DNA from: Kordia zhangzhouensis
Lineage (GTDB): Bacteria; Bacteroidota; Bacteroidia; Flavobacteriales; Flavobacteriaceae
Reading direction: 5' to 3'
DNA: 64,000 nt
NCBI RefSeq assembly: GCF_001005305.1
Contig: NZ_LBMH01000003.1
Coordinates: 248,001 to 312,000, forward strand
Under the pieces are notes generated by a model. That model did not search any database and was not told the origin of the DNA. It was given only the letters and a program-made list of their open reading frames with translations. The translations under genes were made by a program, and so were the position numbers. Numbering within the stretch: the first letter of the stretch is position 1; the number at the start of each line of letters is the position of its first letter. Of the stretch, positions 22,398 to 42,884 are shown in pieces.

Positions 22398-22551
22398 GAC
22401 AATAAATTCATGAACTATTTGTTGCAAATTAACGGTATAGCCGATGAAGATGCAAATTTTTGAAATGATTTTTTATTATTTTAAAGTTGCATCACAAAAA
22501 TTCTTTATTAAGTTTTTGAAAATAATAGTGAGTGTTGTAAATAGTAAACGA

Positions 22552-27984: not shown

Positions 27985-28337
27985 GGCTATTTAGGGTTAG
28001 GGCTTTAAAATCAGTTAAAAGTAGAAAAATTATCTTTTCGTTCATCCTTGCAATACTGCATTTCATCTTTGATTTTAAACCTTTTACCGAAACAGAAAGC
28101 GCCTATCACCTTATAAAAGCGCATTATATTCACTTAAAAATAAGCAACTTGCATTTTTTAACACGTAAAATACTTCTGATGTTAATTTTTCTCAGAAAAA
28201 GATTACTTTTAAATGTTGAAAAACACATAACTAACCTTGGTATTTTTATACAATAACAACAAGCCGTTTCAAATAAAAGAAACGACTTGTAGGATACTTT
28301 TTACTGTTTGAATACTTCTTATCGAGTTGAACTCAAT
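27985..28337. other. Gene-free stretch before the T9SS cargo gene
   Basis: These 353 bases hold the upstream region of the leftward cargo gene and the 3' side of the sulfur operon. Apart from the hairpin at 28259-28290 I see no conserved RNA, no small gene and no full TAnnTTTG promoter. Confidence 0.5.
28259..28290 (-). terminator. Hairpin ending the sulfur operon
   Basis: A 12-bp stem with one G-U pair (arms 28259-28270 and 28279-28290, core AAGYCGTTTC) 47 bases after the ferredoxin reductase stop codon. The following U content is modest, so termination strength is uncertain. Confidence 0.5.
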
Positions 28338-29393
28338 CTAGTGAATGGCTTGTACAATTTCCTTTTTGGCTTCTTTTTTTGAACCATCAAAACCTTCAAC
28401 CCCTGAAACTGTAGTATATTTCATAAGATATTTTTTATCAGGATGAATCCGTTGATAGGCACTCTGACACATAACCGCAGCTTCATGAAATCCTGACAGA
28501 ATGAGTTTTAGTTTGCCCTTATAAGTATTTACATCACCAATAGCATATACTCCCGGAATATTGGTTTGGTAATCATACGAGTTATTCACTTTTATGGCAT
28601 TTTTTTCAATTTCCAATCCCCAATTTCCCAAAGGTCCAAGTTTAGGAGATAATCCAAATAATGGTATAAAGTGATCCGTTTCTAAGTAAGTAAGTGCTTC
28701 CCCATTTTTTACAATACTTACTCCTGTAAGTTGTTGTTCCCCATGCAAATCTGTAATTTCTGCTGGTGTTATTAAATTTACTTTCCCTTGATTTTTAAGT
28801 GCTTGAACTTTTTCGACAGAATCTAAAGCGCCTCTAAATTCATTTCTACGATGTACTAAAGTGACTTCACTAGCAATTTTTGCTAACTCTATCGTCCAAT
28901 CAAGAGCAGAATCACCTCCTCCAGCAATGACTACTTTTTGATTGCGGTATTTTTCAGGATCACGAATTATATATGCTACTCCATTGTCTTCATATTTTTC
29001 CAATCCTTTTATGGGTGGTTTTCTCGGTTCAAAAGAACCTAATCCGCCAGCAATAACTACAACAGGCGCATGGTGTTGAGTACCCTTATTTGTTGTTACT
29101 ATAAATGTATCGTCTTCTAATCTTTCTAGTGTTTCTGCACGTTCCCCAAGCGTAAAACCTGGTTTAAATGATTCGATTTGTGCTAGTAAATTTTTGATAA
29201 GATCGCCTGCCAATATTTCTGGAAAACCAGGTATATCGTAAATTGGTTTTTTGGGATATATTTCGGCACACTGCCCTCCAGGTTGCGGCAATGCATCTAT
29301 TAAGTGCGTTTTTAATTTTAGCAAACCCGCTTCAAATACGGTAAATAAACCTGTTGGTCCTGCTCCTATTATCAGAATATCTGTTTGTATCAT
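28338..29393 (-). CDS. Ferredoxin/flavodoxin-NADP reductase (thioredoxin-reductase-like)
   Basis: A 351-residue FAD/NAD(P) oxidoreductase. The FAD site is IIGAGPTGLF (8-17) and the NADPH site is VIAGGGDSALD (about 154-164), with the C-terminal FAD motif GVYAIGDVNTYKGK (about 285-298). The CxxC redox pair of true thioredoxin reductases is absent, which points to the ferredoxin-NADP reductase subgroup. As last gene of the siroheme/sulfite reductase operon it most likely provides electrons via ferredoxin for the six-electron reduction of sulfite. That role is inferred from position. Confidence 0.82.
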   Translation of the reverse strand: MIQTDILIIGAGPTGLFTVFEAGLLKLKTHLIDALPQPGGQCAEIYPKKPIYDIPGFPEILAGDLIKNLLAQIESFKPGFTLGERAETLERLEDDTFIVTTNKGTQHHAPVVVIAGGLGSFEPRKPPIKGLEKYEDNGVAYIIRDPEKYRNQKVVIAGGGDSALDWTIELAKIASEVTLVHRRNEFRGALDSVEKVQALKNQGKVNLITPAEITDLHGEQQLTGVSIVKNGEALTYLETDHFIPLFGLSPKLGPLGNWGLEIEKNAIKVNNSYDYQTNIPGVYAIGDVNTYKGKLKLILSGFHEAAVMCQSAYQRIHPDKKYLMKYTTVSGVEGFDGSKKEAKKEIVQAIH

Positions 29394-29399
29394 TTGTAT

Positions 29400-29993
29400 T
29401 TAGTTATTGATGTTGTTTTTATGTAAAAGTGTTTCGGTCAATTCGTTTAATGAATGTATTTTTTGTTCAAAGTTACCTTTCAGTCTTTTCCGGTAACTAT
29501 GTAAGTTTTGCACCAATTCGTCGATGCTTTCTGGTAAAATGTCTTCAAAAAATTGGCGCAAACGTTTGGCGGTTGTTGGAGATTTTCCATTGGTAGAAAT
29601 AGCGATTTTTACATTTCCTTTGGTAACAATTCCTCCCATATAAAAGTCACAGTATTGTGGCTGATCGGCAAGATTTACCAATATGTGTCTCCGTTTGGCT
29701 TCTAAAAAAACATGCAAATTGACCATTTGATCATTCGTAGCTGCTATTACAATATGTTTTTCATCGAGATAATCATGCTCATAGCTTTCTTCAATTAGTA
29801 CTACTGACATATGTTTTTTTGCTAGCTCATAGATTTCTTCTTTAATTGCTGGTGCTAATACATATACTTTTGCGTGCGGACTAGATTTGAGAAGAAAATT
29901 TAGTTTTTCCAATCCTACGTTTCCGCCTCCTACTATTAAAATGTTAAGTTGTGCTGCTTTTAGAAATATTGGATAGAGTTCGTTTGTTTCCAT
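29400..29993 (-). CDS. Precorrin-2 dehydrogenase / sirohydrochlorin ferrochelatase
   Basis: A 197-residue protein equivalent to the N-terminal half of CysG (Met8/SirC family), which oxidises precorrin-2 with NAD and may insert iron to give siroheme. The Rossmann motif is ILIVGGGNVGLEK (18-30); NDQMVNLHVF (about 92-101) and the STNGKSPTTAKRLR segment (about 132-145) are typical. It follows cobA by five bases. Siroheme is the cofactor of the reductase two genes upstream. Confidence 0.88.
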   Translation of the reverse strand: METNELYPIFLKAAQLNILIVGGGNVGLEKLNFLLKSSPHAKVYVLAPAIKEEIYELAKKHMSVVLIEESYEHDYLDEKHIVIAATNDQMVNLHVFLEAKRRHILVNLADQPQYCDFYMGGIVTKGNVKIAISTNGKSPTTAKRLRQFFEDILPESIDELVQNLHSYRKRLKGNFEQKIHSLNELTETLLHKNNINN

Positions 29994-29998
29994 AGTTT

Positions 29999-30775
29999 TT
30001 AAATAACTTCTTTGAGTGAGAAAAGATTTTTAGTAGGAACAGATTGGGAGTGACTTGAAGTAAAAGCTTCCTGAACAACTTCTCCAATTACAATAATGGC
30101 AGGCGCTCCTATATTTTTCTCTGCCACTTTATCTACGATAGATTCAACAGTTCCAAAAACGGACTTTTCTATGTCGGTCGTGCCATTTTGAATTATACTT
30201 ACTGGTGTAGTACGTTTACCTGCAATGGTAAAAAGCGAGGTTATTTCTTGAAGTTTACTCATTCCCATTAAAATGACAACTGTCGCTGAAGATTGTGCCG
30301 CTAGCGCCACATCTTTTGATAGTTTTCTTTGCGATGTTGTACCAGTAATTACCCAAAAACTTTCTGATATACCACGTTTTGTCAATGGTATTCCTACCGA
30401 TGCTGGTACTGCAATGGCAGATGTGATACCAGAAACTACTTCCGTTTCAAGTCCATATTGTTTGGCATACGCAATTTCTTCTGCTCCACGACCAAAAATA
30501 AACGGATCTCCTCCTTTTAAACGAACAACATGTCCAAACTTTTGTGCTTTTTCAACAATTAGCTCATTGATTTCATTTTGTGTATATCGATGAAATCCTT
30601 TGCGTTTTCCCACAAAAATATGAACTGCATTCGGTGCATATTCAAGAAGCTCACGATTGATTAGTGCATCGTATAATACTACATTAGCATTTTGCAATGT
30701 GTTGATTCCTTTTAAGGTCATAAGTTCTGGGTCTCCAGGACCAGCACCTAATACTGTAAGTTTGGGTTTATACAT
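29999..30775 (-). CDS. cobA: Uroporphyrinogen-III C-methyltransferase
   Basis: A 258-residue SUMT that methylates uroporphyrinogen III twice with SAM to precorrin-2. Family motifs are VLGAGPGDPELMTLKG (8-23), LKGGDPFIFGRGAEE (about 84-98) and the VSGITSAIAVPASVGIPLT region (about 114-132). Its start overlaps the end of the reductase gene by eight bases, which indicates translational coupling. Here it serves siroheme rather than cobalamin synthesis. Confidence 0.93.
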   Translation of the reverse strand: MYKPKLTVLGAGPGDPELMTLKGINTLQNANVVLYDALINRELLEYAPNAVHIFVGKRKGFHRYTQNEINELIVEKAQKFGHVVRLKGGDPFIFGRGAEEIAYAKQYGLETEVVSGITSAIAVPASVGIPLTKRGISESFWVITGTTSQRKLSKDVALAAQSSATVVILMGMSKLQEITSLFTIAGKRTTPVSIIQNGTTDIEKSVFGTVESIVDKVAEKNIGAPAIIVIGEVVQEAFTSSHSQSVPTKNLFSLKEVI

Positions 30776-32861
30776 GAGTCAACTCCTCCCTTCTGTATGC
30801 TTTTAACTGAGTTACAAACCATGTCGCATCTAAAATGTATTGTTTAGCGAATGCTTCGGATGGTTCATTTTCTCGAATTTGATAAATGAATTTTGCAAAA
30901 GACTCAGACAATGCTATTTTTTGAGTTTCAACAAATACTTTGTCAAATTGTTCAATGATGCTAGCGTGTGAGTTTGTTTTTTCATGTATGGAAAGTAATA
31001 ATGCTTTTGCGGCATTAACCATAGACGCATATGCATGGTAAATACTGTCACTATAACATTGAACTGTAAATGCTTCTTTTGAATTTACAATTTTTTCTTC
31101 ACTTTCTAGAAGTAAAGTTTCTACAAGATCAATGACAACTCCAGCACACTCTCCTATGCCAACTGCTTTAACATATGGAGTTTCATGTCCCCAATCTATA
31201 AAATCATTTTCTGCTAAATTCGTACTGTCTGAAAGAGATTTTAGCAAATCATAAAAGTATAGTTTTTCTTTTCGCTGATAATAAGCCGTATATGTTTCTG
31301 TTTGAGTTGCATTTGCCTGATAGTCATTTAGTATGACTCGTAATGCTTCTGGTCCGCGTTTGCTAGGAATTTTTAGTACCTTATCTGCAAAGAGTCCTTT
31401 TCCATTACCTAAAACACCTCCTCCTAATAATATTTGCAATGCTGGCGCTACTAATTTCCCAGACTTGATAGTCATTCCCTGAAATCCTATTTCGGCCATG
31501 TTATGTTGACCACATCCATTCATGCAACCACTTATTTTTATAGTTATATTCTTAGCGGTGACCAATTCTTGATATTCTTCAGAAATGACACTTTCAAGTT
31601 TTTTGGCTATTCCAGTACTGCTAGCTATTCCAAGATTACATGTGTCTGTACCAGGACAAGCCGTAATATCTACCAATTTATTGTAGCCTATTTTAGTATA
31701 TCCTAGTTTTTGTAACTCTTGATAAAAGTAAGGCAGCCAAGCTTCTCGCACATGGCGTATTAAAATATTTTGTCGTAATGTGAATCGTAGTTCATCAGCA
31801 GCATATTTTTGAATTAAATCTGCCAATAATCGTGCTTTATCTGTATAAAAATCTCCTAATGATATACGAATCCCAATTGCAAATAACCCGGGTTGTTTTT
31901 GTGGAATGACATTGCTTTTTTTCCATTCTTCATAAGCTTCAACGTCTTTTATAACAACTTCTGTAGGTATATCCTGCTGAAATGTAGGTGCTTTATCAAA
32001 AGTAGTTGTTTCAATCGCTATTTTATGAGTTGATAATGCTTTTCGTTCATCATCAATTAATTTGGTAAAAGCTTCCAAACCCAATTCTTTTATTAAAAAC
32101 TTCATTCGCGCTTTTCCTCTTTTACTTCTTTCCCCGTGCCTATCAAAAATTCGCAATACGCCTTCTATCAACGGAATTATTTCATCCGTAGGTAAAAACT
32201 CATAGAGTACATCTGCGTGTCGAGGTTGTGAACCTAATCCTCCTCCAAGCATTACTTTAAACCCCCGAATTTCTTTTTCTAGTTTTGCTATAAATCCAAG
32301 GTCATGGATATAGCTCAAAGCAGAATCAGCATCTGTAGCCGAAAAAGAGATTTTAAATTTTCTACCCATTTCTTGAGAGATTGGATTACGCAAAAAGTAT
32401 TTGAAAACCGCATCTGCATACGGAGAAACGTCAAACGGTTCGTCAATATCAATCCCAGCCGTAGCACTCGCTGTTACATTGCGTACAGTGTTTCCACATG
32501 CTTCTCTAAGTGTGATATCATCTTTTTCTAGTTGCGCCCACAATTCTGGTGTTCTGTCTAAACCCACATAGTGAATTTGAATATCTTGTCGTGTGGTAAT
32601 ATGCAACCTCCCTGTAGAATATTCGTCGGCTACATCGGCTATTCGATGTAATTGCGCACTGGTTACTTTTCCAAAAGGCAGTTTGATACGAATCATTTGA
32701 ACGCCAGGTTGTCGTTGACCATATACGCCTCTTGCTAATCGAAGACTCCTAAATTTTTCTTCGTCTACTTTTCCTTCTTTAAATAAGCGGATTTTTTGTT
32801 CCAATTCGATAATGTCTTTTTCTACGATTGGATTTTCTATTTCTGTTCTAAAGCTTTGCAT
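30768..32861 (-). CDS. Siroheme sulfite (or nitrite) reductase with C-terminal HEPN domain
   Basis: A 697-residue fusion. Residues 1-560 form the duplicated ferredoxin-like and siroheme/4Fe-4S fold of assimilatory sulfite/nitrite reductases. The cluster ligands are Cys 402, 408, 446 and 450 (ACPGTDTCNLG and SGCMNGCGQHN), and TTRQDIQIHY (88-97) lines the siroheme. Residues about 565-697 are an all-helical HEPN-type domain. Operon context (cysHDN, siroheme genes, ferredoxin reductase) argues for sulfite. The frame is open 46 codons further up, but that part reads through the attenuator hairpin and starts at a leucine-rich non-conserved stretch. The ATG at 32861, just after the terminator, is chosen. 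Confidence 0.85.
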   Translation of the reverse strand: MQSFRTEIENPIVEKDIIELEQKIRLFKEGKVDEEKFRSLRLARGVYGQRQPGVQMIRIKLPFGKVTSAQLHRIADVADEYSTGRLHITTRQDIQIHYVGLDRTPELWAQLEKDDITLREACGNTVRNVTASATAGIDIDEPFDVSPYADAVFKYFLRNPISQEMGRKFKISFSATDADSALSYIHDLGFIAKLEKEIRGFKVMLGGGLGSQPRHADVLYEFLPTDEIIPLIEGVLRIFDRHGERSKRGKARMKFLIKELGLEAFTKLIDDERKALSTHKIAIETTTFDKAPTFQQDIPTEVVIKDVEAYEEWKKSNVIPQKQPGLFAIGIRISLGDFYTDKARLLADLIQKYAADELRFTLRQNILIRHVREAWLPYFYQELQKLGYTKIGYNKLVDITACPGTDTCNLGIASSTGIAKKLESVISEEYQELVTAKNITIKISGCMNGCGQHNMAEIGFQGMTIKSGKLVAPALQILLGGGVLGNGKGLFADKVLKIPSKRGPEALRVILNDYQANATQTETYTAYYQRKEKLYFYDLLKSLSDSTNLAENDFIDWGHETPYVKAVGIGECAGVVIDLVETLLLESEEKIVNSKEAFTVQCYSDSIYHAYASMVNAAKALLLSIHEKTNSHASIIEQFDKVFVETQKIALSESFAKFIYQIRENEPSEAFAKQYILDATWFVTQLKAYRREELTHV

Positions 32862-32878
32862 GATTTGATTTTCAAGTA

Positions 32879-32919
32879 TTAAAAAAGTCCTTTTGAAATG
32901 GAGTATCAAAAGGACTTTT
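32879..32919 (-). terminator. Attenuator terminator before sulfite reductase gene
   Basis: A 14-bp perfect stem (arms 32883-32896 and 32906-32919, core AGTCCTTTTGA) with a U run on the minus strand, 18 bases before the reductase ATG and inside the cys operon. The upstream leader frame contains UCAAAAGG (from 32954-32961), an 8-base copy of the 3' arm that can pair with the 5' arm and prevent the hairpin. Confidence 0.85.
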
Positions 32920-32941
32920 GTAAAATATAGATATGACCATT

Positions 32942-33028
32942 TTACTTCATATGCCTTTTGATGGTATGAATTGTACATGAGCAACACATGATGCAACATG
33001 AATTTGTATGTTTTTTGTTCTGGTTCAC
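32942..33028 (-). CDS. Cysteine-rich leader peptide of the sulfite reductase attenuator
   Basis: A 28-codon frame starting at GTG (33028) with the run SCCIMCCSC at residues 10-18: five Cys in about nine codons plus one Met. An internal ATG (32989) would give a 15-residue version beginning MCCSC. It lies between cysN and the reductase gene, stops 22 bases before the terminator, and its later codons (ACC ATC AAA AGG) supply the antiterminator copy. Stalling at Cys codons when cysteinyl-tRNA is scarce would allow read-through. Which start is used cannot be decided from sequence. Confidence 0.65.
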   Translation of the reverse strand: MNQNKKHTNSCCIMCCSCTIHTIKRHMK

Positions 33029-33040
33029 GTATTTTCTTGT

Positions 33041-34288
33041 TTATTTAATGAATCCAACACCTGCGGTTGTATTGGTTTGTAAGTCTATTAAAATAAAACC
33101 TCCGTTGTGCTTGTTTTGATGGTAGCTGTCATAAAAAATAGGTTTATTTAGTTTTAGTCGAATGTTTCCTATTTCATTAAGTTGTAATGCATGTTGGTTA
33201 GTTATTGTTTCTGAGAAGTTTGCTTCTTCATGAGTTTCTACTGTTATCACTTTTGCTAATACATTGTGTACTCCATGCTGCAAACCGTATTTTGTAGCGG
33301 TTGTAAGTGGTTTTTTATCCATCCAGCAAATTGTTGCTTCCAATTCTTTACCAACCGTAGGTTGTTCATTGGTTTTTACAATCATGTCTCCTCTACTTAC
33401 ATTGACATCATCCGTAAGGGTAAGCACAAATGAGCTTCCTTTTTCAGCGCTTTCAAAAGTTTCTTCGTAAAAGAAAATTTCTTTTACTGTAGATTGAGTT
33501 CCTGAAGGCAAAACGGTTACTTTATCTCCTATTGTTAATCTTCCACCATACAGTTTCCCCGCATATCCTCTAAAATCATGAAAGTTGTCTGTTTTAGGTC
33601 TTATTACTGTTTGAACAGGAAAACGTGTTGCAGCTTCTTCATACACATCTTGCGCCTGAATATGCTCTAGATGTTCTACTAACGTTTTTCCTGTATACCA
33701 AGGCATTTTGTTTGACTTTTTTACAACATTATCGCCATGTAAAGCACTCACAGGAATACAAGTGCTATTTTGTCCTTTGTAACTAGATCCGTCAATTAGC
33801 GTTTGGATTTCCTCTTTTACTTTATTGAATTTTTCTTCATCAAATGCAACAAGGTCCATTTTATTAACTGCTACTATTATATCTTTTACTTGTAGCAAAT
33901 TGTTGATGTAAAAGTGCCTTTTGGTTTGCTCTATAACACCTTTTCTTGCATCTATAAGTATGATTGCTACCTGCGAAGTTGATGCACCAGTTACCATGTT
34001 TCGTGTATATTCTACATGTCCAGGTGTATCGGCTATAATGTAGCTTCTGTTTTGTGTTGAAAAATAAATATGAGCAACATCAATTGTGATTCCTTGTTCA
34101 CGTTCAGCCACAAGTCCATCAGTTGCAAGAGAAAAATCTAAATAATCAAATCCTTTTTGCCTGCTGTTACGTTCAATTGCTTCCAACTTATCATCTGTAA
34201 GCGAATGCGTATCGTATAATATTCTGCCGATCAACGTACTTTTCCCGTCGTCTACACTTCCTGCCGTAGCTATTTTAAGTACTTCCAT
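33041..34288 (-). CDS. cysN: Sulfate adenylyltransferase subunit 1 (GTPase)
   Basis: An EF-Tu-like GTPase of 415 residues that couples GTP hydrolysis to APS formation by CysD. G1 is GSVDDGKST (10-18), G3 is DTPGHVEYTRN (about 88-98) and G4 is NKMD (about 143-146). The two beta-barrel domains follow. It ends without a fused APS kinase domain, unlike CysNC. It starts nine bases after cysD. Confidence 0.95.
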   Translation of the reverse strand: MEVLKIATAGSVDDGKSTLIGRILYDTHSLTDDKLEAIERNSRQKGFDYLDFSLATDGLVAEREQGITIDVAHIYFSTQNRSYIIADTPGHVEYTRNMVTGASTSQVAIILIDARKGVIEQTKRHFYINNLLQVKDIIVAVNKMDLVAFDEEKFNKVKEEIQTLIDGSSYKGQNSTCIPVSALHGDNVVKKSNKMPWYTGKTLVEHLEHIQAQDVYEEAATRFPVQTVIRPKTDNFHDFRGYAGKLYGGRLTIGDKVTVLPSGTQSTVKEIFFYEETFESAEKGSSFVLTLTDDVNVSRGDMIVKTNEQPTVGKELEATICWMDKKPLTTATKYGLQHGVHNVLAKVITVETHEEANFSETITNQHALQLNEIGNIRLKLNKPIFYDSYHQNKHNGGFILIDLQTNTTAGVGFIK

Positions 34289-34297
34289 TTTTTTCTA

Positions 34298-35203
34298 TTA
34301 AAAATATCCTTGTTGTTTTCTTTTTTCCATTGCTGCTTCCGAACGTTTATCATCAATTCGTGCACCTCGCTCAGAAATGGTAGATCGTCGTATTTCTTGC
34401 ACAACTGAAGCAATATCGTATGCATTAGAAAGTACTGCTGCTGTACAACTCATATCCCCAACCGTGCGAAATCGTATGACACGTTCTTCTGTTTTTTCAT
34501 CATCTTCTCGGTATACTACCTCATCATTGGCAGACCAAATAAGTCCATCACGTAAGAATGTTTCTCGGGTATGCGCAAAGTAGATAGAAGGTATGTCTAT
34601 TTGTTCCTTTTCAATGTAACTCCAAACATCGAGCTCTGTCCAGTTGGAGATTGGAAATACTCGTACATTTTGTCCATGATCAATTTTTCCATTAAGCATA
34701 TCAAAAACTTCTGGACGTTGATTTTTTTCATCCCACTGTCCAAAATCATCACGAACGGAAAATATACGTTCTTTTGCTCTTGCTTTTTCTTCATCGCGAC
34801 GCGCACCACCTATACATGCATCAAAACCAAATTCCTCTATTGCATCTAGCAAAGTTTCTGTTTGCAGTATATTACGACTTGCATATTTCCCTGTTTCTTC
34901 AGTTACTTTACCTGCATCAATTGTGTCTTGCACTTTTCTTACGATAAGCTGCAATCCTAGTTTTTTGACCAATTGATCTCTAAATTCGATGGTTTCGGGG
35001 AAATTGTGTCCTGTATCAATATGTAATAGAGGGAATGGAATTTTTGCTGGAAAAAAAGCTTTTTGAGCTAATCTTACCAATGTAATAGAATCTTTTCCGC
35101 CTGAGAATAATAAAACAGGTTTTTCAAATTGTGCAACTACTTCTCTAAGAATGTATATTGCCTCACTTTCTAATATATTTGCTTGTAATACGTTTGTACT
35201 CAT
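34298..35203 (-). CDS. cysD: Sulfate adenylyltransferase subunit 2
   Basis: The catalytic subunit (301 residues) that adenylates sulfate to APS in the cytoplasm. The PP-loop is FSGGKDS (33-39), and DTGHNFPET (about 63-71) and GGARRDEEKARAKER (about 132-146) are typical of CysD. It lies nine bases behind cysH and nine before cysN, a tight cysH-cysD-cysN unit. Confidence 0.96.
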   Translation of the reverse strand: MSTNVLQANILESEAIYILREVVAQFEKPVLLFSGGKDSITLVRLAQKAFFPAKIPFPLLHIDTGHNFPETIEFRDQLVKKLGLQLIVRKVQDTIDAGKVTEETGKYASRNILQTETLLDAIEEFGFDACIGGARRDEEKARAKERIFSVRDDFGQWDEKNQRPEVFDMLNGKIDHGQNVRVFPISNWTELDVWSYIEKEQIDIPSIYFAHTRETFLRDGLIWSANDEVVYREDDEKTEERVIRFRTVGDMSCTAAVLSNAYDIASVVQEIRRSTISERGARIDDKRSEAAMEKRKQQGYF

Positions 35204-35212
35204 GTTTATTCA

Positions 35213-35827
35213 TTAGGAATGTAGTCCACATTCTCGGTTTTCTAAAACTTTTGTTGGATCAAAATAATTGAACTCATTTGGTATCTTATACTCTTCAAGG
35301 TATGCATCTAATTCTGCATCAGACCAATGATAGAAAGGGCTTACCTTTAAGATTCCATCTTTCCCTTGAGAAACGATATCAATCGAATCTCGAAAAGCCG
35401 TTTGCCCTTTCCGTAAATTGGTAAACCAAATTGATGGTTTATGTGCTTGCATGGCACGTGCAAAAGGTTCCAGCTTTACTTGTTCCGTAAAGAGTTGATG
35501 TTTTCCATCATCGACATTAGGAATTCCTAATACGACATCGCGATGGGCAGTGGTTTGTTTAGGCACATAAAGATCAATGTTCAAATTGAGTTGCTGTATC
35601 AATGTCTCTGCATGCCTGTATGTGTTTGGTGTATTATATCCTGTGTCGCACCAAATCACATCTATATTAGGAAAAACGTGTGTACACGCATGTAAAATAG
35701 CTCCTTCATACGGCCTGAAGTTTGTTGTAACGACCGCTTTTCCTTTTTGTTGAATAGCCCACAAAATAATTTCCTTAGGAGATTTGTCTCGTAATTTTTT
35801 ATTGATATGTTGTAAATCTATGCTCAT
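35213..35827 (-). CDS. cysH: PAPS/APS reductase family protein
   Basis: A 204-residue reductase that converts activated sulfate to sulfite with thioredoxin. It has the adenylyl-binding fold (VTTNFRPYEGA near 32-42, WCDTGYNT near 69-76) and the catalytic C-terminal ECGLH (199-203). The Cys-Cys and CxxC pairs that hold the 4Fe-4S cluster of APS reductases are absent, which normally indicates a PAPS substrate. However, no APS kinase (cysC) is visible in this cluster. Substrate therefore remains open. It overlaps nothing but follows the DUF2061 gene by one base. Confidence 0.88.
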   Translation of the reverse strand: MSIDLQHINKKLRDKSPKEIILWAIQQKGKAVVTTNFRPYEGAILHACTHVFPNIDVIWCDTGYNTPNTYRHAETLIQQLNLNIDLYVPKQTTAHRDVVLGIPNVDDGKHQLFTEQVKLEPFARAMQAHKPSIWFTNLRKGQTAFRDSIDIVSQGKDGILKVSPFYHWSDAELDAYLEEYKIPNEFNYFDPTKVLENRECGLHS

Positions 35828-35828
35828 A

Positions 35829-36080
35829 TTATTTTCCCCATTTTATAATGTTCCATAATCGTTCGTGAAAAAAATACAGTATCATTTTAGTAACCATTTC
35901 AATAGAACCAATTGCAAAAGCCATTTGTAATGTTCCTGTTACTAGCCAAGAAATCACGATTGTATCTAACGTACCTATTATTCGCCAGCTAATGGATTTA
36001 CACAGGCTTCTCAACGGTCTTTCAGAATTAATATCTGATTTGTAATCACTTTTATGTTTTGTTATTTGTTGTAAAATCAT
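35829..36080 (-). CDS. DUF2061 membrane protein
   Basis: An 83-residue protein with two likely membrane segments (about 36-53 and 54-73) in the DUF2061 pattern: LCKSISWRIIGTLDT and FFHERLWN. In many Bacteroidota a DUF2061 gene, sometimes fused to other parts, travels with cys genes, and sulfate or sulfite handling at the membrane has been supposed. Nothing in the sequence fixes the role. It is the first gene of the cysH-cysD-cysN unit, directly behind a promoter with an operator-like palindrome. Confidence 0.8.
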   Translation of the reverse strand: MILQQITKHKSDYKSDINSERPLRSLCKSISWRIIGTLDTIVISWLVTGTLQMAFAIGSIEMVTKMILYFFHERLWNIIKWGK

Positions 36081-36103
36081 AGCAGATTTTTATTAATACT
36101 ATT

Positions 36104-36135
36104 ACCCTATCGATTTAATAGAGTATTCAAATATA
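36104..36135 (-). promoter_or_regulatory. Promoter -7 element and palindromic operator of the cys operon
   Basis: On the minus strand TATATTTG (36128-36135) matches the -7 consensus. Four bases downstream begins ACTCTAT-TAAATCG-ATAGGGT (36104-36124), a 7-7-7 inverted repeat with one mismatch. It covers the expected transcription start, so a bound protein would repress. Shape and place recall Rrf2-family (CymR/IscR-type) operators, an inference. No TTG is found at the ideal -33 distance. Confidence 0.5.
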
Positions 36136-36168
36136 TTTGTTTTTTTAAGGATAAACATGAATTTTATA

Positions 36169-37356
36169 TTAAATTTTTATTTCGATTTTAGCGTATAGCG
36201 CTTGTTTAATGTCTTGTATAATATCATTAACATTTTCTAGCCCAACAGATACACGAATCAATCCGTCTGTTATGCTTGTTTCCAACCGGTCTTCAATTGA
36301 AAGTTTACTATGAGTAGTAGAAGCTGGATGTGTTACAATACTACGTGTGTCTCCTAGATTTGCTGACAATGAACACAGTCGAATATTGTTTAAAAATTCC
36401 CTACCTGCCTCTACACCTCCTTTGATTTCAAATGACACAATGTTGCCTCCTAGTTTCATTTGCTTTTTTGCTGTTTCATATTGAGGATGTGATGGTAAAA
36501 AGGGATATTTGACCCAATTTACTTCTGGTTGCTCTTCTAAGAATTGAGCTACTTTTAATGCATTTTCACAGTGACGCTCTACTCTAACAATCAAAGTTTC
36601 TAGACTTTTTGATAAAATCCAAGCATTGAAAGGAGACAAAGCAGGGCCTGTATTTCGAGAAAATAAATAAATTTCCCGAATAAGATCTGAGCGACCTACC
36701 GTAACTCCTCCTAGAACACGACCTTGCCCATCAATTAGCTTGGTTGCTGAATGTATTACTAAATCAGCGCCAAATCGAATTGGTTGTTGCAAATAAGGTG
36801 TTGCAAAGCAATTGTCTACAATGAAAATTAAGCCATGCTTTTTAGCAATGTTTCCCAAAATTTCCAAGTCTAAGATATCTACTGCAGGATTGGTTGGCGA
36901 TTCTGCATAAATCACTTTTGTATTGGGTTGAATTAGTGATTCTATTTGATCTATTTCATCTACTTTAAAATAGCTTGTTTCAATATTCCATTTTGGCAAG
37001 TATTTGGTAAATAAGCTATGTGTGGATCCAAAAATCGAACGAGATGATACTATGTGATCGCCACTATTCAGTAGTGCCGCAAAAGTTGAGAATACAGCCG
37101 ACATTCCAGTAGCAAAAGCATGTCCGTCTTCGGCTCCTTCCATTTTACAAATCTTTGATACAAATTCTGAAGTATTGGGATTGGTAAACCTACTATATAT
37201 ATTTCGCTTTTTTTCTTCTGCAAAGGAAGCGCGCATATCTTCAGCATCTTCAAATATAAAACTTGAGGTTAGATATAATGGATTGGAATGCTCTAAGAAT
37301 TCTGTGCGTTCAATTTGTGTTCGAATAGCTTCTGTTTCTATATGTTTTGAATTCAT
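36169..37356 (-). CDS. metZ: O-succinyl/O-acetylhomoserine sulfhydrylase
   Basis: A 395-residue PLP enzyme of the Cys/Met metabolism family. The PLP Lys is about 206 in HSATKLIDGQGR; the preceding FIVDNCFATPYLQQP (about 178-192) and YAESPTNP (150-157) form the cofactor pocket. The subgroup resembles MetZ, which makes homocysteine directly from an acylhomoserine and sulfide. With MetX making the acetyl ester and MetY also present, two sulfhydrylases are encoded within 6 kb; division of labour is unclear. Cystathionine enzymes belong to the same family, so specificity is moderately certain. Confidence 0.82.
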   Translation of the reverse strand: MNSKHIETEAIRTQIERTEFLEHSNPLYLTSSFIFEDAEDMRASFAEEKKRNIYSRFTNPNTSEFVSKICKMEGAEDGHAFATGMSAVFSTFAALLNSGDHIVSSRSIFGSTHSLFTKYLPKWNIETSYFKVDEIDQIESLIQPNTKVIYAESPTNPAVDILDLEILGNIAKKHGLIFIVDNCFATPYLQQPIRFGADLVIHSATKLIDGQGRVLGGVTVGRSDLIREIYLFSRNTGPALSPFNAWILSKSLETLIVRVERHCENALKVAQFLEEQPEVNWVKYPFLPSHPQYETAKKQMKLGGNIVSFEIKGGVEAGREFLNNIRLCSLSANLGDTRSIVTHPASTTHSKLSIEDRLETSITDGLIRVSVGLENVNDIIQDIKQALYAKIEIKI

Positions 37357-37431
37357 TTTTGATTGTTTGTTGCTTGTTTGAGTAGCATGTACAGTATTGT
37401 GACATACTTTTTTACTTGTTTAAAAATGTAT

Positions 37432-39831
37432 TTATAGTTTTTCTGTTAATCGTAAAATATCACCAAAAACTCCTCTGGCAGTTACTGCTGCTCCAGCTCC
37501 AGCTCCTTGTATGACTAATGGTTGATCTGTATACGCTTCTGTATAAATTTCAAAAATAGAGTCAGAGCCTTTTATTTGTCCCAGCGCACTATTACTTGGT
37601 GTTGAAATGAGTTTTACTTCTAAAACACCTGTTTCTGTTGACAAGTCGCCCACATAACGTAACACATGATTTTCTTGTTGATTTTGCTTGATGAGTTGAT
37701 ATGTTTGATCTAAATCCTTGATATTGGTTTTGAATTGCTCTACTGAAATGCTTTGTAAATGTGCAGGCAATAGATTTTGAATGATAATATCTGAAAATTC
37801 GTGTTGTAAGTCTAATTCTCTGGCGAGGATTAACAGTTTTCTTGCAACATCATTCCCCGATAAATCTTCTCGCGGATCAGGCTCTGTATACCCTTTGTTT
37901 TCAGCTTGTTGTATTACCGAGCTAAACGATACATCTTCTACAGAAAATGTGTTGAAAATATAGCTTAAAGAACCTGAAAAAACACCTCTAATTTTTTTAA
38001 TTTTTTCTCCTGACTTGTGCAATAGTTTGATTGTATCAATGAGAGGCAATCCAGCTCCTACATTGGTTTCGTACAAATAATTTTTTTGATGCTTCTTGAG
38101 TTCTTTTCGCAACATTTTATAAAATGAGTACTCAACAGTGTTCGCAATTTTATTTGCCGAAACCAAATCGAAGCCGTTGGTAACTAAACTAATATAATTA
38201 TGAATAAAATCTTTACTAGCAGTTGCATCTACCGCAATTAAGTTTTCTAAGTGATGTGTATTTGCATAATCAATGATTTGTTGTAAGGTATACGCTGTTT
38301 TTTCTTTTAGAAATGCTTCTTCCCATTGATTATCAATACCGTTTTTATCTAAATATACATATTGTGAATCTGCTACTGCAAACACTGTAAGCTTGATATT
38401 GTTTTTTTCTAAAATGTCATTTTTACTTTGTATAATTTGATTTAATAAAGTTCCTCCAACGAGTCCTTTTCCAAAAACAGCAATATTTATTTTTTTAGAG
38501 ATTCCAAAAATTTGTCCATGAATTACATTAATCGCTTTGTATAACTGAGATTTTTTTACAACTAAGCTTACATTTTTTCCTGAAATAGTATTGTTGAATA
38601 GTATTGGTATGATTTGATTTTTAATCAATGCATTGTACGGTTTATGAAACTTACTCAAATCTTGTCCAATAATAGAAATGACCGCCACATCACTAGTAAC
38701 AGAAATCTTATTAACATCTTTGGTATAAAATTCATTCTCAAACTCTTTTTCTAAAGCGCTTACTGCTTTTGATGCTTTTTCGGCAGCAATTACCAATCCA
38801 ATTCCTCGCTCTGAAGATCCTTGAGAAATGATACTTACGTTGATATTGTTTTCGCCAAGTGTTTTGAATATTCGTGCATCAATCCCTACTTGCCCAAGCA
38901 AACCTCTTCCTTCTATATTGATTAACGCAACATGATCGGATACTGAGATTGATTTGATTCCTTTTTTAGTTTTGTGTGTCACGACAGTTCCTTTATCAGC
39001 ACTATTAAAAGTATTTAAAATGCGTAACGGAATATTTTTTTCAAGTAAAGGAACAATTGTTTTTGCGTGTAAAATGTTAGCTCCAAAAGTTGCCAATTCA
39101 TTTGCTTCTGTAAATGACAGTTCTGTAATTTTTTTAGCATCTGGCACCCATTCTGGATTCGCAGTAAAAATTCCATCTACGTGTGTATAATTCTGCATTT
39201 CTTCCGCATCTAAAAAATTAGCCAATAAAGCAGCTGTATAATTACTTCCGTTTCTACCCAAAGTAGTCGTTTCATTATTTTCATTGGAACCAATAAACCC
39301 CGTAACGATGTTAACTGTTGTGCCGTTATGTGACTTAAAGTGGTTTATGATATTTTTTTTAGAAATCAATTCTAATGGACGCGCATTCCCAAAGGTATTA
39401 TCTGTCTTAATTAGATTTCGAGTATCCGTAAAGTGTGCATTTACACCTTCTTTTTTAAGTAAGTGTGTAACAAGTTTTGCTGAAATAATTTCTCCATACG
39501 AAGCAACTTGATCTCTAATTTTTTCACTATAATCTCCTAAAAGGGAAACTCCTTGAAATATATTCTCAAGAGTAGAAAACTCTTCTGAAAAATCTTGAGA
39601 ACGATCTATTTGGCTTTGATACGCTTTGAACGCTGTAAATTGTTCATGATACGATTCTTTCTGTGCTGCTTTCTCTAGCATTTCCAGCAATTCATCAGTA
39701 GCATTTCCCCTTGCAGACAAAACTACCGCAATATGCTCTTGCTTTTTTGCTTTTTCAGTTATGATTTGAATCGTATTTTTAATTCCTTTTCCATTGGCAA
39801 GTGATTTGCCTCCAAATTTTAATATTTTCAT
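37432..39831 (-). CDS. thrA: Bifunctional aspartate kinase / homoserine dehydrogenase
   Basis: A 799-residue fusion. Residues 1-about 290 are the kinase (KFGGKSLANG at 5-14, the FIGSNENNETTTLGRNGSN phosphate loop near 180), followed by ACT regulatory repeats (about 310-445), and homoserine dehydrogenase from about 455 (NIAVFGKGLVGG; KIANTVEY; GAGAGAAVTARGVFGD near the end). It provides homoserine for methionine. Its place between metX and metZ suggests a methionine-linked isozyme, which might be called MetL; feedback specificity cannot be read. It lies 24 bases behind metX. Confidence 0.93.
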   Translation of the reverse strand: MKILKFGGKSLANGKGIKNTIQIITEKAKKQEHIAVVLSARGNATDELLEMLEKAAQKESYHEQFTAFKAYQSQIDRSQDFSEEFSTLENIFQGVSLLGDYSEKIRDQVASYGEIISAKLVTHLLKKEGVNAHFTDTRNLIKTDNTFGNARPLELISKKNIINHFKSHNGTTVNIVTGFIGSNENNETTTLGRNGSNYTAALLANFLDAEEMQNYTHVDGIFTANPEWVPDAKKITELSFTEANELATFGANILHAKTIVPLLEKNIPLRILNTFNSADKGTVVTHKTKKGIKSISVSDHVALINIEGRGLLGQVGIDARIFKTLGENNINVSIISQGSSERGIGLVIAAEKASKAVSALEKEFENEFYTKDVNKISVTSDVAVISIIGQDLSKFHKPYNALIKNQIIPILFNNTISGKNVSLVVKKSQLYKAINVIHGQIFGISKKINIAVFGKGLVGGTLLNQIIQSKNDILEKNNIKLTVFAVADSQYVYLDKNGIDNQWEEAFLKEKTAYTLQQIIDYANTHHLENLIAVDATASKDFIHNYISLVTNGFDLVSANKIANTVEYSFYKMLRKELKKHQKNYLYETNVGAGLPLIDTIKLLHKSGEKIKKIRGVFSGSLSYIFNTFSVEDVSFSSVIQQAENKGYTEPDPREDLSGNDVARKLLILARELDLQHEFSDIIIQNLLPAHLQSISVEQFKTNIKDLDQTYQLIKQNQQENHVLRYVGDLSTETGVLEVKLISTPSNSALGQIKGSDSIFEIYTEAYTDQPLVIQGAGAGAAVTARGVFGDILRLTEKL

Positions 39832-39855
39832 GATAATTTGGTCTATTGTCTTTGT

Positions 39856-40845
39856 TTAGATGGATGATTTTTGTACTTGAAATATATTCCTAAGAATGAG
39901 ATTTAATTGCTCATACTCAATCAGAAAAGCGTCGTGTCCATGAATTGACTGAATTTCATCGTGATAAACATTGTGCTTGATTTTTTTAAGTCTTTCATAA
40001 GACTCTTTATCCTCTTCAGGAGAAAAAAACAAATCACTATTGATACTTATCATATGAATTGCTCCTGTAATTTTGGAAGCTACACTTTCAAACGATTCCC
40101 GCCCTCTTGTAATATCAATTGTTTTTAACAATTGATTCATGAGTTTATACGCTCCTAATTGATAACGCTGTTGTAATTTTTTCCCGTGATGAATTAACCA
40201 GCTCTCTGTGTTAAATATCTTTTTTTCTCTATGCTTGGTTCGTTGAAATTTTACTTTCAGTGAAAATGGCGTTCGATAGCATAACATTGCGTGAATACGA
40301 GCGTCTTCAATTGGATTGTTTGAATTTGCCAAAATTCGCTCTTGCAAAAAGCAATTGGCAATTAACCAATCGGAAGACTTCCAATCGGAAGCAATTGGAA
40401 TTACATTCTTTATCAAATTTGGCTCTAAAACAGCCATTTCCCATGCAATTCCTCCTCCTAACGACCCTCCAATTGCAGCAAATAGTTTGTGAATCTTCAA
40501 ATTTTCCAATCCTCTAATGAAGAGTTTAGCTATATCTCTAGCTACAAAATCATGACACCGCTTAATCAAGCCTGTTTCCTTAGAAAAACCATTGCCAGGA
40601 ATATCAAAGCTTAAAATTTTAAAATCGTTTGTATCAATGCATTTCCCTTCTCCAATCAGGTTATTCCACCAACCGTTTTCCCCAGTCACTACCGAGTTTC
40701 CTGTAAGCGCATGATTTACCAACACAATCGGCGCTTTTGCATCTTCAGAGCCTACCAATTGATAGCTTAGTTTAAGATTGGGATAATACGCTCCACTTTC
40801 CGTGAAGAAATCAGAAATGGTTATATGTTTTAGCTGTTCTTCCAC
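39856..40845 (-). CDS. metX: Homoserine O-acetyltransferase (short form)
   Basis: An alpha/beta-hydrolase of 329 residues, shorter than the typical 370-380. The oxyanion/early region VNHALTGNS (43-51) and the nucleophile elbow GGSLGG (126-131, Ser 128) match MetX. A catalytic Asp in INSDLFFSPEED (about 269) and His in HGHDAFLIE (about 304) complete the triad. It starts with GTG, ten bases after the metY stop codon. Family members can use succinyl-CoA, but the partner metY argues for the acetyl ester. Confidence 0.85.
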   Translation of the reverse strand: MEEQLKHITISDFFTESGAYYPNLKLSYQLVGSEDAKAPIVLVNHALTGNSVVTGENGWWNNLIGEGKCIDTNDFKILSFDIPGNGFSKETGLIKRCHDFVARDIAKLFIRGLENLKIHKLFAAIGGSLGGGIAWEMAVLEPNLIKNVIPIASDWKSSDWLIANCFLQERILANSNNPIEDARIHAMLCYRTPFSLKVKFQRTKHREKKIFNTESWLIHHGKKLQQRYQLGAYKLMNQLLKTIDITRGRESFESVASKITGAIHMISINSDLFFSPEEDKESYERLKKIKHNVYHDEIQSIHGHDAFLIEYEQLNLILRNIFQVQKSSI

Positions 40846-40855
40846 AATTGTATTA

Positions 40856-42151
40856 TTAAGAAGCTGGTATTCCGGAAGTTATTTTTTCAAACACTGTTTG
40901 CAAATCTGCCTTCAAATCCTCTACATTTTCTAATCCAACAGATAAACGAATCAAATCTTGGGTTACTCCTGTAGATATTTGCTGTTCTTCCGTTAATTGT
41001 TGATGGGTTGTACTTGCTGGATGAATAATTAATGATTTAGTATCACCAATGTTTGCTAGTAGCGAAAAAATCTGAGTTTCATCAGCAATGCGTTTAGCTG
41101 CTTCATAACCCGCCTTTATTCCAAACGTAACTATACCGCTTTGCCCTTCTGGTAAATATTTTTCTGCTATTTTTTTGTATTTGCTAGTTTCTAGTCCAGG
41201 ATAGTTTACCCAAGCTACTGCCTCTTGTTGTTGCAACCATTGAGCAAGTTCTAAAGCATTTTGACTGTGTTGTTTGATTCGAATTGGTAAAGTTTCTAAC
41301 CCTTGAATAATTTGAAATGCGTTAAATGGGCTCAATGCCGAACCAAAATCACGCAATCCTTCAATACGAACTTTGGCAATAAATGCAGCTGCTTCCAATG
41401 CCTCACTATATACTAAGCCATGATATCCTGGTGATGGTTCTGTAAATTCAGGAAATTTTCCATTAGTCCAGTCAAAAGTCCCTGCATCAATTATGGCGCC
41501 GCCTAAAGCAGTTCCGTTTCCATTGATGTATTTTGTAAGTGAGTGAATGACGATATTTGCGCCGTATTTGATAGGATTCAATAAGTAAGGAGTGGCAATG
41601 GTGTTATCGACAATAAGTGGTAATTTGTTAGCTTTGGCTTGCACTGAAATTGCTTCAATGTCAAGGACATCTAGTTTTGGGTTTCCTAATGACTCGATAA
41701 AAACAGCTCTTGTGTTTTCTTGCACAGCTTCACTAAAGCTATTTTCTTCGGCAGGATCAACGAATGTCGTTGTAATTCCGAGTCTTGGCAACGTAACATT
41801 AAGTAAATTATAAGTGCCACCGTACAAACTGTTGGAAGCTACAATATGGTCGCCTGTTCTCAATAAGGTTAGTAGTGTTGTTGCAATAGCTGAAGTTCCC
41901 GAAGCAGTTACCACTGCTGCAATTCCACCTTCTAGAGCTGCTAATCTTTGTTCTAAAATATCATTTGTAGGGTTGTTAATTCTGGTATAGATATTCCCTG
42001 TTTCTGCCAAGGAAAACAAATTGGATGCATGATCAGAGTTATTGAAAACATAGGCAGTAGATTGGTAAATTGGTACTGCTCGGGTTCCTCCATTGAGTGT
42101 CGTATCATGTCCCGAATGTAAAGCTTTTGTTGCGAATTTTTGTGTACTCAT
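40856..42151 (-). CDS. metY: O-acetylhomoserine sulfhydrylase
   Basis: A 431-residue PLP enzyme that combines O-acetylhomoserine with sulfide to homocysteine. The PLP Lys is about 207 in HSLTKYINGNGTALGG, and the length with the extra C-terminal region is typical of MetY. FIESLGNPKLDV (151-162) and LIVDNTIATPYL (179-190) fit. It is the first gene of the metY-metX-thrA-metZ operon, placed behind two successive Met/Cys leader-peptide attenuators. Confidence 0.93.
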   Translation of the reverse strand: MSTQKFATKALHSGHDTTLNGGTRAVPIYQSTAYVFNNSDHASNLFSLAETGNIYTRINNPTNDILEQRLAALEGGIAAVVTASGTSAIATTLLTLLRTGDHIVASNSLYGGTYNLLNVTLPRLGITTTFVDPAEENSFSEAVQENTRAVFIESLGNPKLDVLDIEAISVQAKANKLPLIVDNTIATPYLLNPIKYGANIVIHSLTKYINGNGTALGGAIIDAGTFDWTNGKFPEFTEPSPGYHGLVYSEALEAAAFIAKVRIEGLRDFGSALSPFNAFQIIQGLETLPIRIKQHSQNALELAQWLQQQEAVAWVNYPGLETSKYKKIAEKYLPEGQSGIVTFGIKAGYEAAKRIADETQIFSLLANIGDTKSLIIHPASTTHQQLTEEQQISTGVTQDLIRLSVGLENVEDLKADLQTVFEKITSGIPAS

Positions 42152-42220
42152 TTTTCTAGTATTTGATAATTGTGTGATTTATTTTTTTGAATTTCGATTC
42201 ATTTTGAGTGTCAACCAACG

Positions 42221-42265
42221 AAAAAAGGCCTTTTTGGATGTGTATTACCAAAAAGACCTTTTTTT
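42221..42265 (-). terminator. Attenuator terminator T1 before metY
   Basis: A 17-bp stem with one mismatch (arms 42221-42237 and 42248-42264, core AGGCCTTTTTGG) and a long U run on the minus strand, 70 bases before metY. The 5' arm can pair, less perfectly, with CGAAAAGUUCC in the last codons of leader L1. Confidence 0.85.
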
Positions 42266-42283
42266 ATGCTTACGATAAACGAA

Positions 42284-42412
42284 TTACCATTTATCAGGAA
42301 CTTTTCGATAATAGCAAGTGTGACCACAACACATCATGCATGCAGTCATCATCATACAACAACACATAGTCATGGTTGTCTTGATAGTTACTATTTGAAA
42401 AATTCGATTCAT
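42284..42412 (-). CDS. Met/Cys-rich leader peptide L1 of the metY operon
   Basis: A 42-codon frame whose middle reads MTMCCCMMMTACMMCCGHTC (residues 14-33): seven Met and seven Cys in twenty codons. It stops 19 bases before the T1 hairpin. Such runs hardly occur by chance and mark a ribosome-stalling sensor of charged tRNA-Met and tRNA-Cys, the end products of the operon it precedes. A second ATG at codon 14 could also start a shorter form. No promoter is seen between T2 and L1, so L1 appears to be read only by transcripts that pass T2. Confidence 0.78.
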   Translation of the reverse strand: MNRIFQIVTIKTTMTMCCCMMMTACMMCCGHTCYYRKVPDKW

Positions 42413-42446
42413 TGGTTCTTAAAAAATTAACTTAAAATATAATCAT

Positions 42447-42475
42447 GAAAAAAGCCTCTGCGTTTGCAGAGGCTT
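42447..42475 (-). terminator. Attenuator terminator T2 upstream of leader L1
   Basis: A 10-bp GC-rich stem (arms 42452-42461 and 42466-42475, AAGCCTCTGC) with a four-base loop and six U on the minus strand. The L2 coding region holds GCAGAGG (from 42522-42528), identical to the 3' arm and able to pair with CCUCUGC of the 5' arm. Confidence 0.85.
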
Positions 42476-42501
42476 GAATTTATTGATAATGCTTTTAAAA
42501 G

Positions 42502-42579
42502 TTAGCGTAATACAATAGTGTCCTCTGCGGCATTTCTGCTACACATCATACAACACATATTACAAACTTTAATAAACAT
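42502..42579 (-). CDS. Met/Cys-rich leader peptide L2 of the metY operon
   Basis: A 25-codon frame with the run CNMCCMMC at residues 6-13 (four Cys, three Met). It starts about 14 bases after the predicted transcription start and stops 26 bases before T2. Codons 17-19 (GCC GCA GAG, then G) provide the antiterminator strand. A ribosome stalled in the Met/Cys run would leave this strand free, while one that reaches the stop would cover it and let T2 form. This geometry is classical attenuation. Confidence 0.78.
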   Translation of the reverse strand: MFIKVCNMCCMMCSRNAAEDTIVLR

Positions 42580-42598
42580 ACTTCGTCTTTGTTTGTGA

Positions 42599-42630
42599 CA
42601 AAGGTAATGTCATAATTTTTTAAAATCCAA
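42599..42630 (-). promoter_or_regulatory. Promoter of the metY operon leader
   Basis: On the minus strand TTG (42628-42630), a 21-base spacer and TACCTTTG (42599-42606), a full match to TTG-N-TAnnTTTG. It gives a very short 5' UTR before leader peptide L2. Confidence 0.75.
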
Positions 42631-42698
42631 ATATTTTTTCATAAAAAGTTGATTTTAACAGTTTTTAAAAGAAAAATGAAATTCTATTTTTTTGTTGT

Positions 42699-42727
42699 TT
42701 GTTTATGAACAGATTTTTATACATTTG
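42699..42727 (+). promoter_or_regulatory. Promoter of metK
   Basis: TTG (42699-42701), an 18-base spacer and TACATTTG (42720-42727), a full consensus match. Transcription would begin at about 42733, exactly at the first base of the structured leader RNA. Confidence 0.75.
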
Positions 42728-42732
42728 CAGCT

Positions 42733-42806
42733 GATTTGAGGAAAAATTTGAACTGATTGCAACCTCAAATCCTGAAAATTCAGGATATTAAAAAATGCTA
42801 AAGCAG
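42733..42806 (+). ncRNA. Structured metK leader, probable SAM riboswitch (SAM-I/IV-like)
   Basis: The predicted transcript starts with GATTTGAGG (42733-42741), which pairs perfectly with CCTCAAATC (42763-42771). The closing strand of this stem contains GCAACC (42759-42764), as in P3 of SAM-I. A second hairpin TCCTGAA/TTCAGGA (42770-42785) follows, and then TGCTAAAGCAG (42796-42806), resembling the GGTGCTAA-x-TCC-x-GCAG segment of SAM-I. These elements and the position before SAM synthetase suggest a member of the SAM-I/SAM-IV superfamily variants. The match is partial, so another metabolite or a new class is possible. The ATG of metK is 78 bases further on with no strong terminator between, which hints at translational control. 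Confidence 0.55.
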
Positions 42807-42884
42807 TAATTTTCTACTTCTTTAGTCGACCAAGCAATCACTCTTAGTTTTCTTCATCATTTTAATCATAAAAGAAGATTTATT

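Follow-up and report, generated by a model that had tools for sequence, protein, structure and literature searches.

The window analysed here is a stretch of 64,000 nucleotides from the flavobacterium Kordia zhangzhouensis, and the locus of interest is the leader region upstream of metY (Table 1). Behind metY lie genes that serve methionine synthesis and the supply of sulfide for cysteine. Ahead of it are two small open reading frames rich in Met and Cys codons, each with a terminator hairpin behind it and each with a strand that could pair with the 5' arm of that hairpin.

Table 1. Features of the metY locus and nearby switches; antiterminator strands and the promoter are predictions
Feature	Position	Strand	Remarks
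Promoter-like element, Bacteroidota type, TTG-N21-TAnnTTTG	42630-42599	minus	TTG, 21 nt, TACCTTTG
Leader ORF 1 (uORF1)	42502-42579	minus	25 codons, MFIKVCNMCCMMCSRNAAEDTIVLR
Met/Cys run CNMCCMMC of uORF1	42564-42541	minus	
Unit-1 antiterminator strand GCAGAGG	42528-42522	minus	starts 12 nt past the last Cys codon of the run
Terminator hairpin 1	42475-42452	minus	10 pairs; T tail from 42451
Leader ORF 2 (uORF2)	42284-42412	minus	42 codons
Met/Cys stretch Met14-Cys33 of uORF2	42373-42314	minus	7 Met and 7 Cys in 20 codons
Unit-2 antiterminator strand	42313-42301	minus	TATTATCGAAAAG
Partner of the unit-2 antiterminator	42255-42243	minus	CTTTTTGGTAATA; end of the terminator 5' arm and part of the loop
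Terminator hairpin 2	42262-42223	minus	-17.8 kcal/mol; T tail from 42222
metY, O-acetylhomoserine sulfhydrylase	40856-42151	minus	TIGR01326, above its cut-off
metX-like homoserine O-acetyltransferase	39856-40845	minus	under curated cut-offs
Bifunctional aspartate kinase/homoserine dehydrogenase	37432-39831	minus	
O-succinylhomoserine sulfhydrylase-like PLP enzyme	36169-37356	minus	slightly under cut-off
Sulfate-assimilation genes	28338-35827	minus	cysH-like, cysD, cysN, sulfite/nitrite reductase-like, two cysG parts, TrxB-like
Terminator-like longer hairpin	28290-28259		behind the last gene
SAM-II riboswitch	42732-42811	plus	before metK (42885, plus)
SAM-I riboswitch	22297-22399	minus	before metH (two ORFs, 21026-22027 and 18202-20877) and a metF-like gene

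A first-pass annotation had described the promoter, both leader ORFs, both terminators and the GCAGAGG copy of the terminator arm, and all of them lie where it placed them; its count of Met and Cys codons in uORF2 was exact, and its view that terminator and antiterminator exclude one another in unit 1 agrees with the use of one common arm by both structures. The present analysis adds the antiterminator of unit 2, which would consist of 13 contiguous pairs. Terminator 2 is missing from a simple hairpin scan because its loop has 10 nt and the scan permits 8. The same promoter arrangement precedes uORF1 in nine of the ten other Kordia genomes, L018 being the one without the full motif, and no second TAnnTTTG occurs between the two units within the window.

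The Met/Cys content of the leaders is exceptional when measured over spans of 12 residues with at least two of each residue. When the 489-nt leader was shuffled 5,000 times with its dinucleotides preserved, no small ORF with seven or more Met/Cys in such a span arose, and uORF1 and uORF2 are the only ones with six or more when every ORF of 8-80 codons is counted on either strand of the window (1,892 in all); a chance origin of these leaders is thereby ruled out. Between 42152 and 42731 no Rfam family reaches its cut-off, so that a known riboswitch in the leader is rejected. The SAM-I covariance model (RF00162) finds no match there, its only match in the window being the one before metH, and the T-box model has no match at gathering score anywhere in the window.

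We infer that metY and the genes through to the end of the sulfate-assimilation cluster form one long operon. A terminator scan from 28000 to 42700 gave 9 candidates against 7.4 in shuffles, which is no excess, and a few weak matches lie within genes. The SAM-II riboswitch before metK is divergent from the leaders and occupies the same intergenic region; SAM-II matches upstream of metY on the opposite strand recur in many relatives. With SAM-I at metH and SAM-II at metK, this genome has SAM-I, SAM-II and the putative attenuators at different met genes. A search of the genome for leaders with His codons found three places, none of them a clear leader.

To follow the leaders among relatives we used a script that calls a unit where a small Met/Cys-rich ORF has a T-tailed hairpin behind it. 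It was applied to named or MAG records, the 80 most similar in MetY out of 575 relatives listed, and at least one unit was present at 41 of these 80 metY loci: both kinds at 19, the second only at 12 and the first only at 10. Thus 22 of the 41 have a single unit by script, and one of them, L087, has an upstream sequence of just 167 nt. Both uORFs, with both runs and both hairpins, are present in each of the ten other Kordia genomes searched (units called directly in six, and in four through records L019-L022, which have the same peptides at the same distances), and units occur in genera other than Kordia. The earlier annotation had named a lack of conserved Met/Cys runs as an outcome that would refute its reading, and that outcome did not occur. 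Peptides of the first kind typically carry the motif NMCCMM..(P/S)..SAE or NMCMMMWNNPQR, and those of the second kind in Flavobacterium typically carry MMMCCMM.MC..CYCQK. A terminator follows each leader 18-45 nt past its stop codon.

To assess the pairing of both hairpin systems, 27 sequences of unit 1 and 31 of unit 2 were aligned (the window with 26 of 32 and 30 of 33 others, those omitted being mostly near copies). Terminator pairing is kept in 99.3% of cells in unit 1, with three pairs changed on both sides, and in 90.7% in unit 2, with eight such pairs, which strongly supports both hairpins. Predicted antiterminator pairing is kept in 91.4% and 89.2% of cells, compared with at most 47.2% and 57.8% when slid by one to three columns, a control that is biased toward the antiterminators since the structures were derived from the window row. 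Antiterminator covariation within these alignments is weak: one and two pairs are changed on both sides, and 134 and 223 of 500 shuffles reach these numbers. In wider sampling the antiterminator and terminator arms have changed together in other genera; the combinations seen are GCAGAGG/CCTCTGC, GCAGCG(G)/C(C)GCTGC, GCAAGGGC/GCCCTTGC, GCGAAGGC/GCCTTTGC (with one G-U), GCAGGG/CCCTGC and GGAGGTT/AGCCTCC. These co-changed arms are stronger evidence for the predicted antiterminators than the counts within the alignments.

From the last codon of the run to the antiterminator strand the gap is 10-14 nt in 54 of the 58 class-1 rows, which include three actual second units (L001, L059 and L119), and in 53 of the 55 true first units; the count leaves out L160, a near copy of L064, and L184 and L215, which have odd second hairpins. 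When the duplex between leader and terminator arm was compared with 200 letter shuffles for each of 106 units, a set that does include L160, L184 and L215, p was at most 0.05 in 77 units (at most 0.01 in 30) and above 0.05 in 29, for example in F. psychrophilum L060 (0.445) and in unit 2 of Kordia L018 (0.305). The units have common ancestry and are not independent, so these counts are descriptive.

The sequence GCAGAG encodes Ala-Glu in Kordia and lies inside Pro-Gln-Arg, in another frame, in several Flavobacterium, and in L077, L081, L083 and L085 the unit-2 antiterminator strand ends 9-12 nt past the stop codon; hence the RNA is conserved and the peptide is not. The post-run RNA CCGCAGAG is likewise mostly kept while its reading frame differs among relatives. 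The best conserved stretches of the leaders are the codon run, the antiterminator and the terminator. Three other ways of reading the locus can be weighed here. The leaders might encode functional Cys/Met-rich small proteins, for thiol or copper binding for example, with hairpins that merely end short transcripts. Cys and Met are soft metal ligands, and some other bacteria have copper-responsive leaders that are translated and contain Cys motifs, but the part behind the run shifts frame while the RNA stays, each stop codon is followed at short distance by a terminator whose arm most leaders copy, and met and cys genes lie behind; we regard this explanation as scarcely credible, and a conserved peptide function is rejected by the frame change. 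It is very improbable, if a little less so, that the ribosome is stalled in the run by the nascent peptide itself or by redox damage instead of by uncharged tRNA: both residues are prone to oxidation, but the order and number of Met and Cys vary among relatives, which argues against a specific arrest peptide. We give next to no weight to sensing by an undiscovered riboswitch or a protein-bound leader element with passive ORFs. A riboswitch does stand at that position before many metY genes of the family, but no Rfam family scores above its cut-off in the leader, whose conservation peaks at the codon run and the two alternative structures.

Attenuation by a translating ribosome is compatible with the predicted folding of the nascent RNA. 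When the edge of the ribosome was placed before the antiterminator strand and the polymerase just past the 5' arm, unit 1 formed seven antiterminator pairs and unit 2 formed 13, and when the antiterminator strand was masked the terminators formed in both units. Once the RNA reaches past the terminator the terminator fold wins, in the stalled case too, so the decision would have to be taken during transcription, as it is held to be in known attenuators. In folds without a ribosome neither antiterminator is part of the best structure, and a protector-like structure of the trp type appears only in single-sequence folds of this sort.

We consider it very probable, from the sequence evidence, that the leader contains two serial ribosome-mediated transcription attenuators that sense charged tRNA-Met, and usually tRNA-Cys, and control genes for methionine synthesis and sulfate assimilation. 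The leader ORFs, the terminators, the predicted antiterminators with their common arm, the conservation and the lack of overlap with SAM-I at the loci seen can all be read from the DNA itself; what they would entail is that transcription starts at the promoter, that the leaders are translated, that ribosomes stall where tRNA is uncharged and that the response is multiplied. In such a circuit the polymerase would start at the promoter and transcribe uORF1. A shortage of charged tRNA-Met, usually also of charged tRNA-Cys, would stall the ribosome in the Met/Cys run, its leading edge halting just ahead of the antiterminator strand 10-14 nt downstream; the strand, left free, would pair with the 5' arm of the terminator and the polymerase would read on. 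With both charged tRNAs plentiful, the ribosome would reach the stop codon and cover the antiterminator strand, the terminator would form and transcription would end. Unit 2 would impose the same test again before metY, and only transcripts passing both units would become mRNA for metY, metX, the aspartate kinase/homoserine dehydrogenase and the sulfhydrylase, perhaps with the sulfate-assimilation genes behind.

The earlier annotation had proposed that the operon reads both Met and Cys, twice. The sequence evidence supports this proposal and refines it. In the runs Met is constant and Cys optional, a predicted antiterminator belongs to unit 2 as well, and by script both units occur at only 19 of the 41 leader loci. 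Met is present in the densest ten residues of every class-1 and class-2 row, and Cys is absent from them in four of 58 class-1 rows and in one of 44 class-2 rows (L051, whose Cys residues follow just behind). It is conceivable, and in our judgement unlikely, that the leaders sense methionine only, the Cys codons being a by-product of drift or serving to slow the ribosome. The constancy of Met speaks for this, as do the class-1 rows without Cys and the copies in G153 and G448 that have Met only, but the densest ten residues hold on average 2.2 Cys in class-1 and 3.0 in class-2 rows, and a Cys-rich leader pair precedes a cysH-like gene in L254.

The genes behind the leaders suggest that the codon mix follows the downstream pathway, in small numbers and with the cysD stretches described below standing apart. 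Met-only leaders precede a metX-like gene in G153 (by eye) and, in G448, a fragmented gene with a PLP domain of Cys/Met metabolism; among six such leaders five lie before met genes, and the contig breaks off shortly behind the remaining one, L112 in G017. Leaders that are Cys-rich or mixed precede cysH-like genes in G302 and G323 and, in G339, a hexapeptide-transferase gene with a PLP gene of cysteine-synthase fold. Six other Kordia have Cys-rich leaders without a near-identical cysD (at E 1e-60 five match nothing, and the cysD match of the sixth is just 59% identical), so the Cys codons do not closely track the sulfate-assimilation genes. In a test with cysD across 73 genomes, these six Kordia leave it unsupported, as a rule, that Cys codons are a mark of sulfate-assimilation clusters. 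For 20 of the 57 genomes that match cysD, the roughly 6 kb ending with cysD were scanned, and the script called no Met/Cys unit in any of them. Upstream of cysH/cysD genes in 17 of the loci L264-L283 (not L277, L278 or L281) we observed a conserved protein of 135-138 aa starting M(L/I)S(K/R)KTKYG, which we take to resemble the Rrf2-family regulators.

A covariance model of unit 1, R1, was used to survey the wider distribution. In the family, 22 of 249 genomes match at E 1e-6 or below; weaker matches were left uncounted (93 of the 249 match at 1e-3, many over the terminator end only). Within the counted range G237 (L120) and the second match of G041 (L237) have no Met/Cys unit by script. Across the order, the model matches 22 out of 196 genomes at 1e-5, namely our own genome, 16 of the genus taken as Flavobacterium and five from four other families. 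Among these five, G302, G435 and G280 hold a script-called unit, which precedes a cysH-like gene in G302 (Pfam) and a metY-like gene in G435 (by eye); G313 and G345 have none by script. The second match of G443 is likewise without a script-called unit. Units also stand before genes other than metY. Tandem Met/Cys leaders stand before cysH-like genes at L254 and L257, in G302 (of another family of the order) and G323. At L230 in G208 a tandem precedes an OsmC-like and a metX-like gene, and although the unit-1 terminator there is quite different in sequence, the leader still carries a copy of its arm. At L253 in G448, from about 3595 to 6390 on the minus strand, an EamA transporter and an amino acid permease are preceded by two leader ORFs rich in Met/Cys and by their terminators; when the EamA protein was traced in 39 genomes, the one full match was itself and two others reached 42-43% identity, which gives no support for conservation of this arrangement.

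At metY the leader device occupies the position where other genera have a SAM-I riboswitch. The first 80 loci comprise 41 with a leader, 37 with SAM-I (Rfam scan, within 700 nt before metY), none with both and two with neither, L063, where SAM-I lies farther up before the gene that precedes metY, and L094. A SAM-II riboswitch was seen directly before metY at L094 (2373-2432, Rfam). A second set, overlapping the first in part, started from 249 genomes of the family, 171 of which have a MetY match; 100 of these were taken and gave 14 leader loci, 80 SAM-I loci (by model R2), none with both and six with neither; its first 80 were taken by similarity with few gaps and its last 20 were hand-picked, some for their R1 match, so the leader share is not a frequency. 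The first script called units at 12 of the 14, and L148 and L227, added by eye, were called under a looser threshold. Among the six loci with neither, L190 and L228 have a SAM-II-like element before metY (by eye), metY seems to follow directly on metK in L167, L204 and L219, and nothing was seen in L200. Under one rule for all loci, at least four Met/Cys in ten residues and a hairpin, units appeared in none of 117 SAM-I loci (80 and 37) and in 13 of 20 others; with at least three in ten, they appeared in two of the 117 (L165 and L069, both without a Met/Cys run) and in 14 of the 20. To explain the leader label on a MetY tree of 183 rows, built by a quick method with identical proteins entered once, 10 changes are needed, and well-supported branches force at least four of them; the tree does not give the direction of change.

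Leader-peptide attenuators of amino-acid operons have a run of regulated codons in a short ORF, an antiterminator that overlaps it and an intrinsic terminator. The metY leaders are like those of trp, his, phe, thr and leu in all these features and in the biosynthetic genes behind; they differ in having Met and Cys codons, in their two full units in series and in having no clear conserved protector hairpin. SAM-I (S-box, RF00162), which senses SAM through an aptamer, has the same position before the same gene in other genera and is never found with the leaders at metY among the loci seen. A T-box binds tRNA directly, without leader translation. In Firmicutes, loss of a SAM riboswitch likewise goes with other controls of Met/Cys genes, including the tRNA-sensing Met-specific T-boxes; CymR, MtaR and the Smk box are also involved there.

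Cys-codon leaders have been described elsewhere. In Rhodobacterales the Cys-codon uORFC-8-2 and a terminator precede cysS, and ribosome-mediated attenuation was proposed; it differs from the metY leaders in having two tandem Cys codons, one unit, a tRNA synthetase target and an alpha-proteobacterial host, and its description mentions no Met run (PMC8632094). Actinobacterial cys operons resemble the metY leaders in their leader peptides with Cys-codon runs and differ in having no conserved terminator hairpin, rho having been suggested; for the methionine operons of Actinobacteria the account reports no conserved upstream RNA structure (PMC1262725). The metXZ element of beta-proteobacteria also places a terminator and antiterminator before metX or metZ, but it was proposed as a pseudoknotted conserved RNA, in a text from which the term 'leader peptide' is absent (PMC4239095). 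Tandem attenuation with two short ORFs in one leader is known from Salmonella mgtCBR, a Mg2+ transporter and virulence operon and not one of amino-acid biosynthesis (PMC3641672). Closer to Kordia, the 2021 transcriptome of Flavobacterium psychrophilum gave strong clues for leader-peptide attenuation before amino-acid biosynthesis operons; its main text does not contain the word methionine or name the metY leader, which its supplement may list (PMC9723704). In Bacteroides, long 5' UTRs with small ORFs were found reminiscent of leader peptides (PMC7366714). Amino-acid attenuators, Cys-codon leaders, tandem attenuators and the replacement of SAM riboswitches among Firmicutes are already known separately; in the titles and abstract openings that our literature search listed, most subscription papers aside, none describes a Met/Cys tandem attenuator.

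These observations could be drawn together, tentatively and at somewhat less than even confidence, as a modular leader regulon for sulfur amino acids in the Flavobacteriales. In it, interchangeable Met/Cys units would act alone or in series and would have been swapped with SAM-I at metY several times, in either direction. Their codon mix would follow the genes behind (Met-only before met genes, Cys-rich before a cysH operon and mixed where both pathways follow), and they would also stand before cysteine-synthase-type genes and, in one genome, before amino-acid transporters. The leader device at metY, if it works as proposed, would sense Met and Cys charging by way of translation, and would do so in a phylum whose attenuators of this kind have been little studied. 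It would also offer a natural exchange experiment, metY being placed under either a SAM aptamer or a codon run read by the ribosome and never under both at the loci seen. Such either-or control makes it testable what a bacterium may gain by sensing charged tRNA as against SAM, and opens to experiment why Met and Cys would be read together and whether attenuators in series would sharpen the response.
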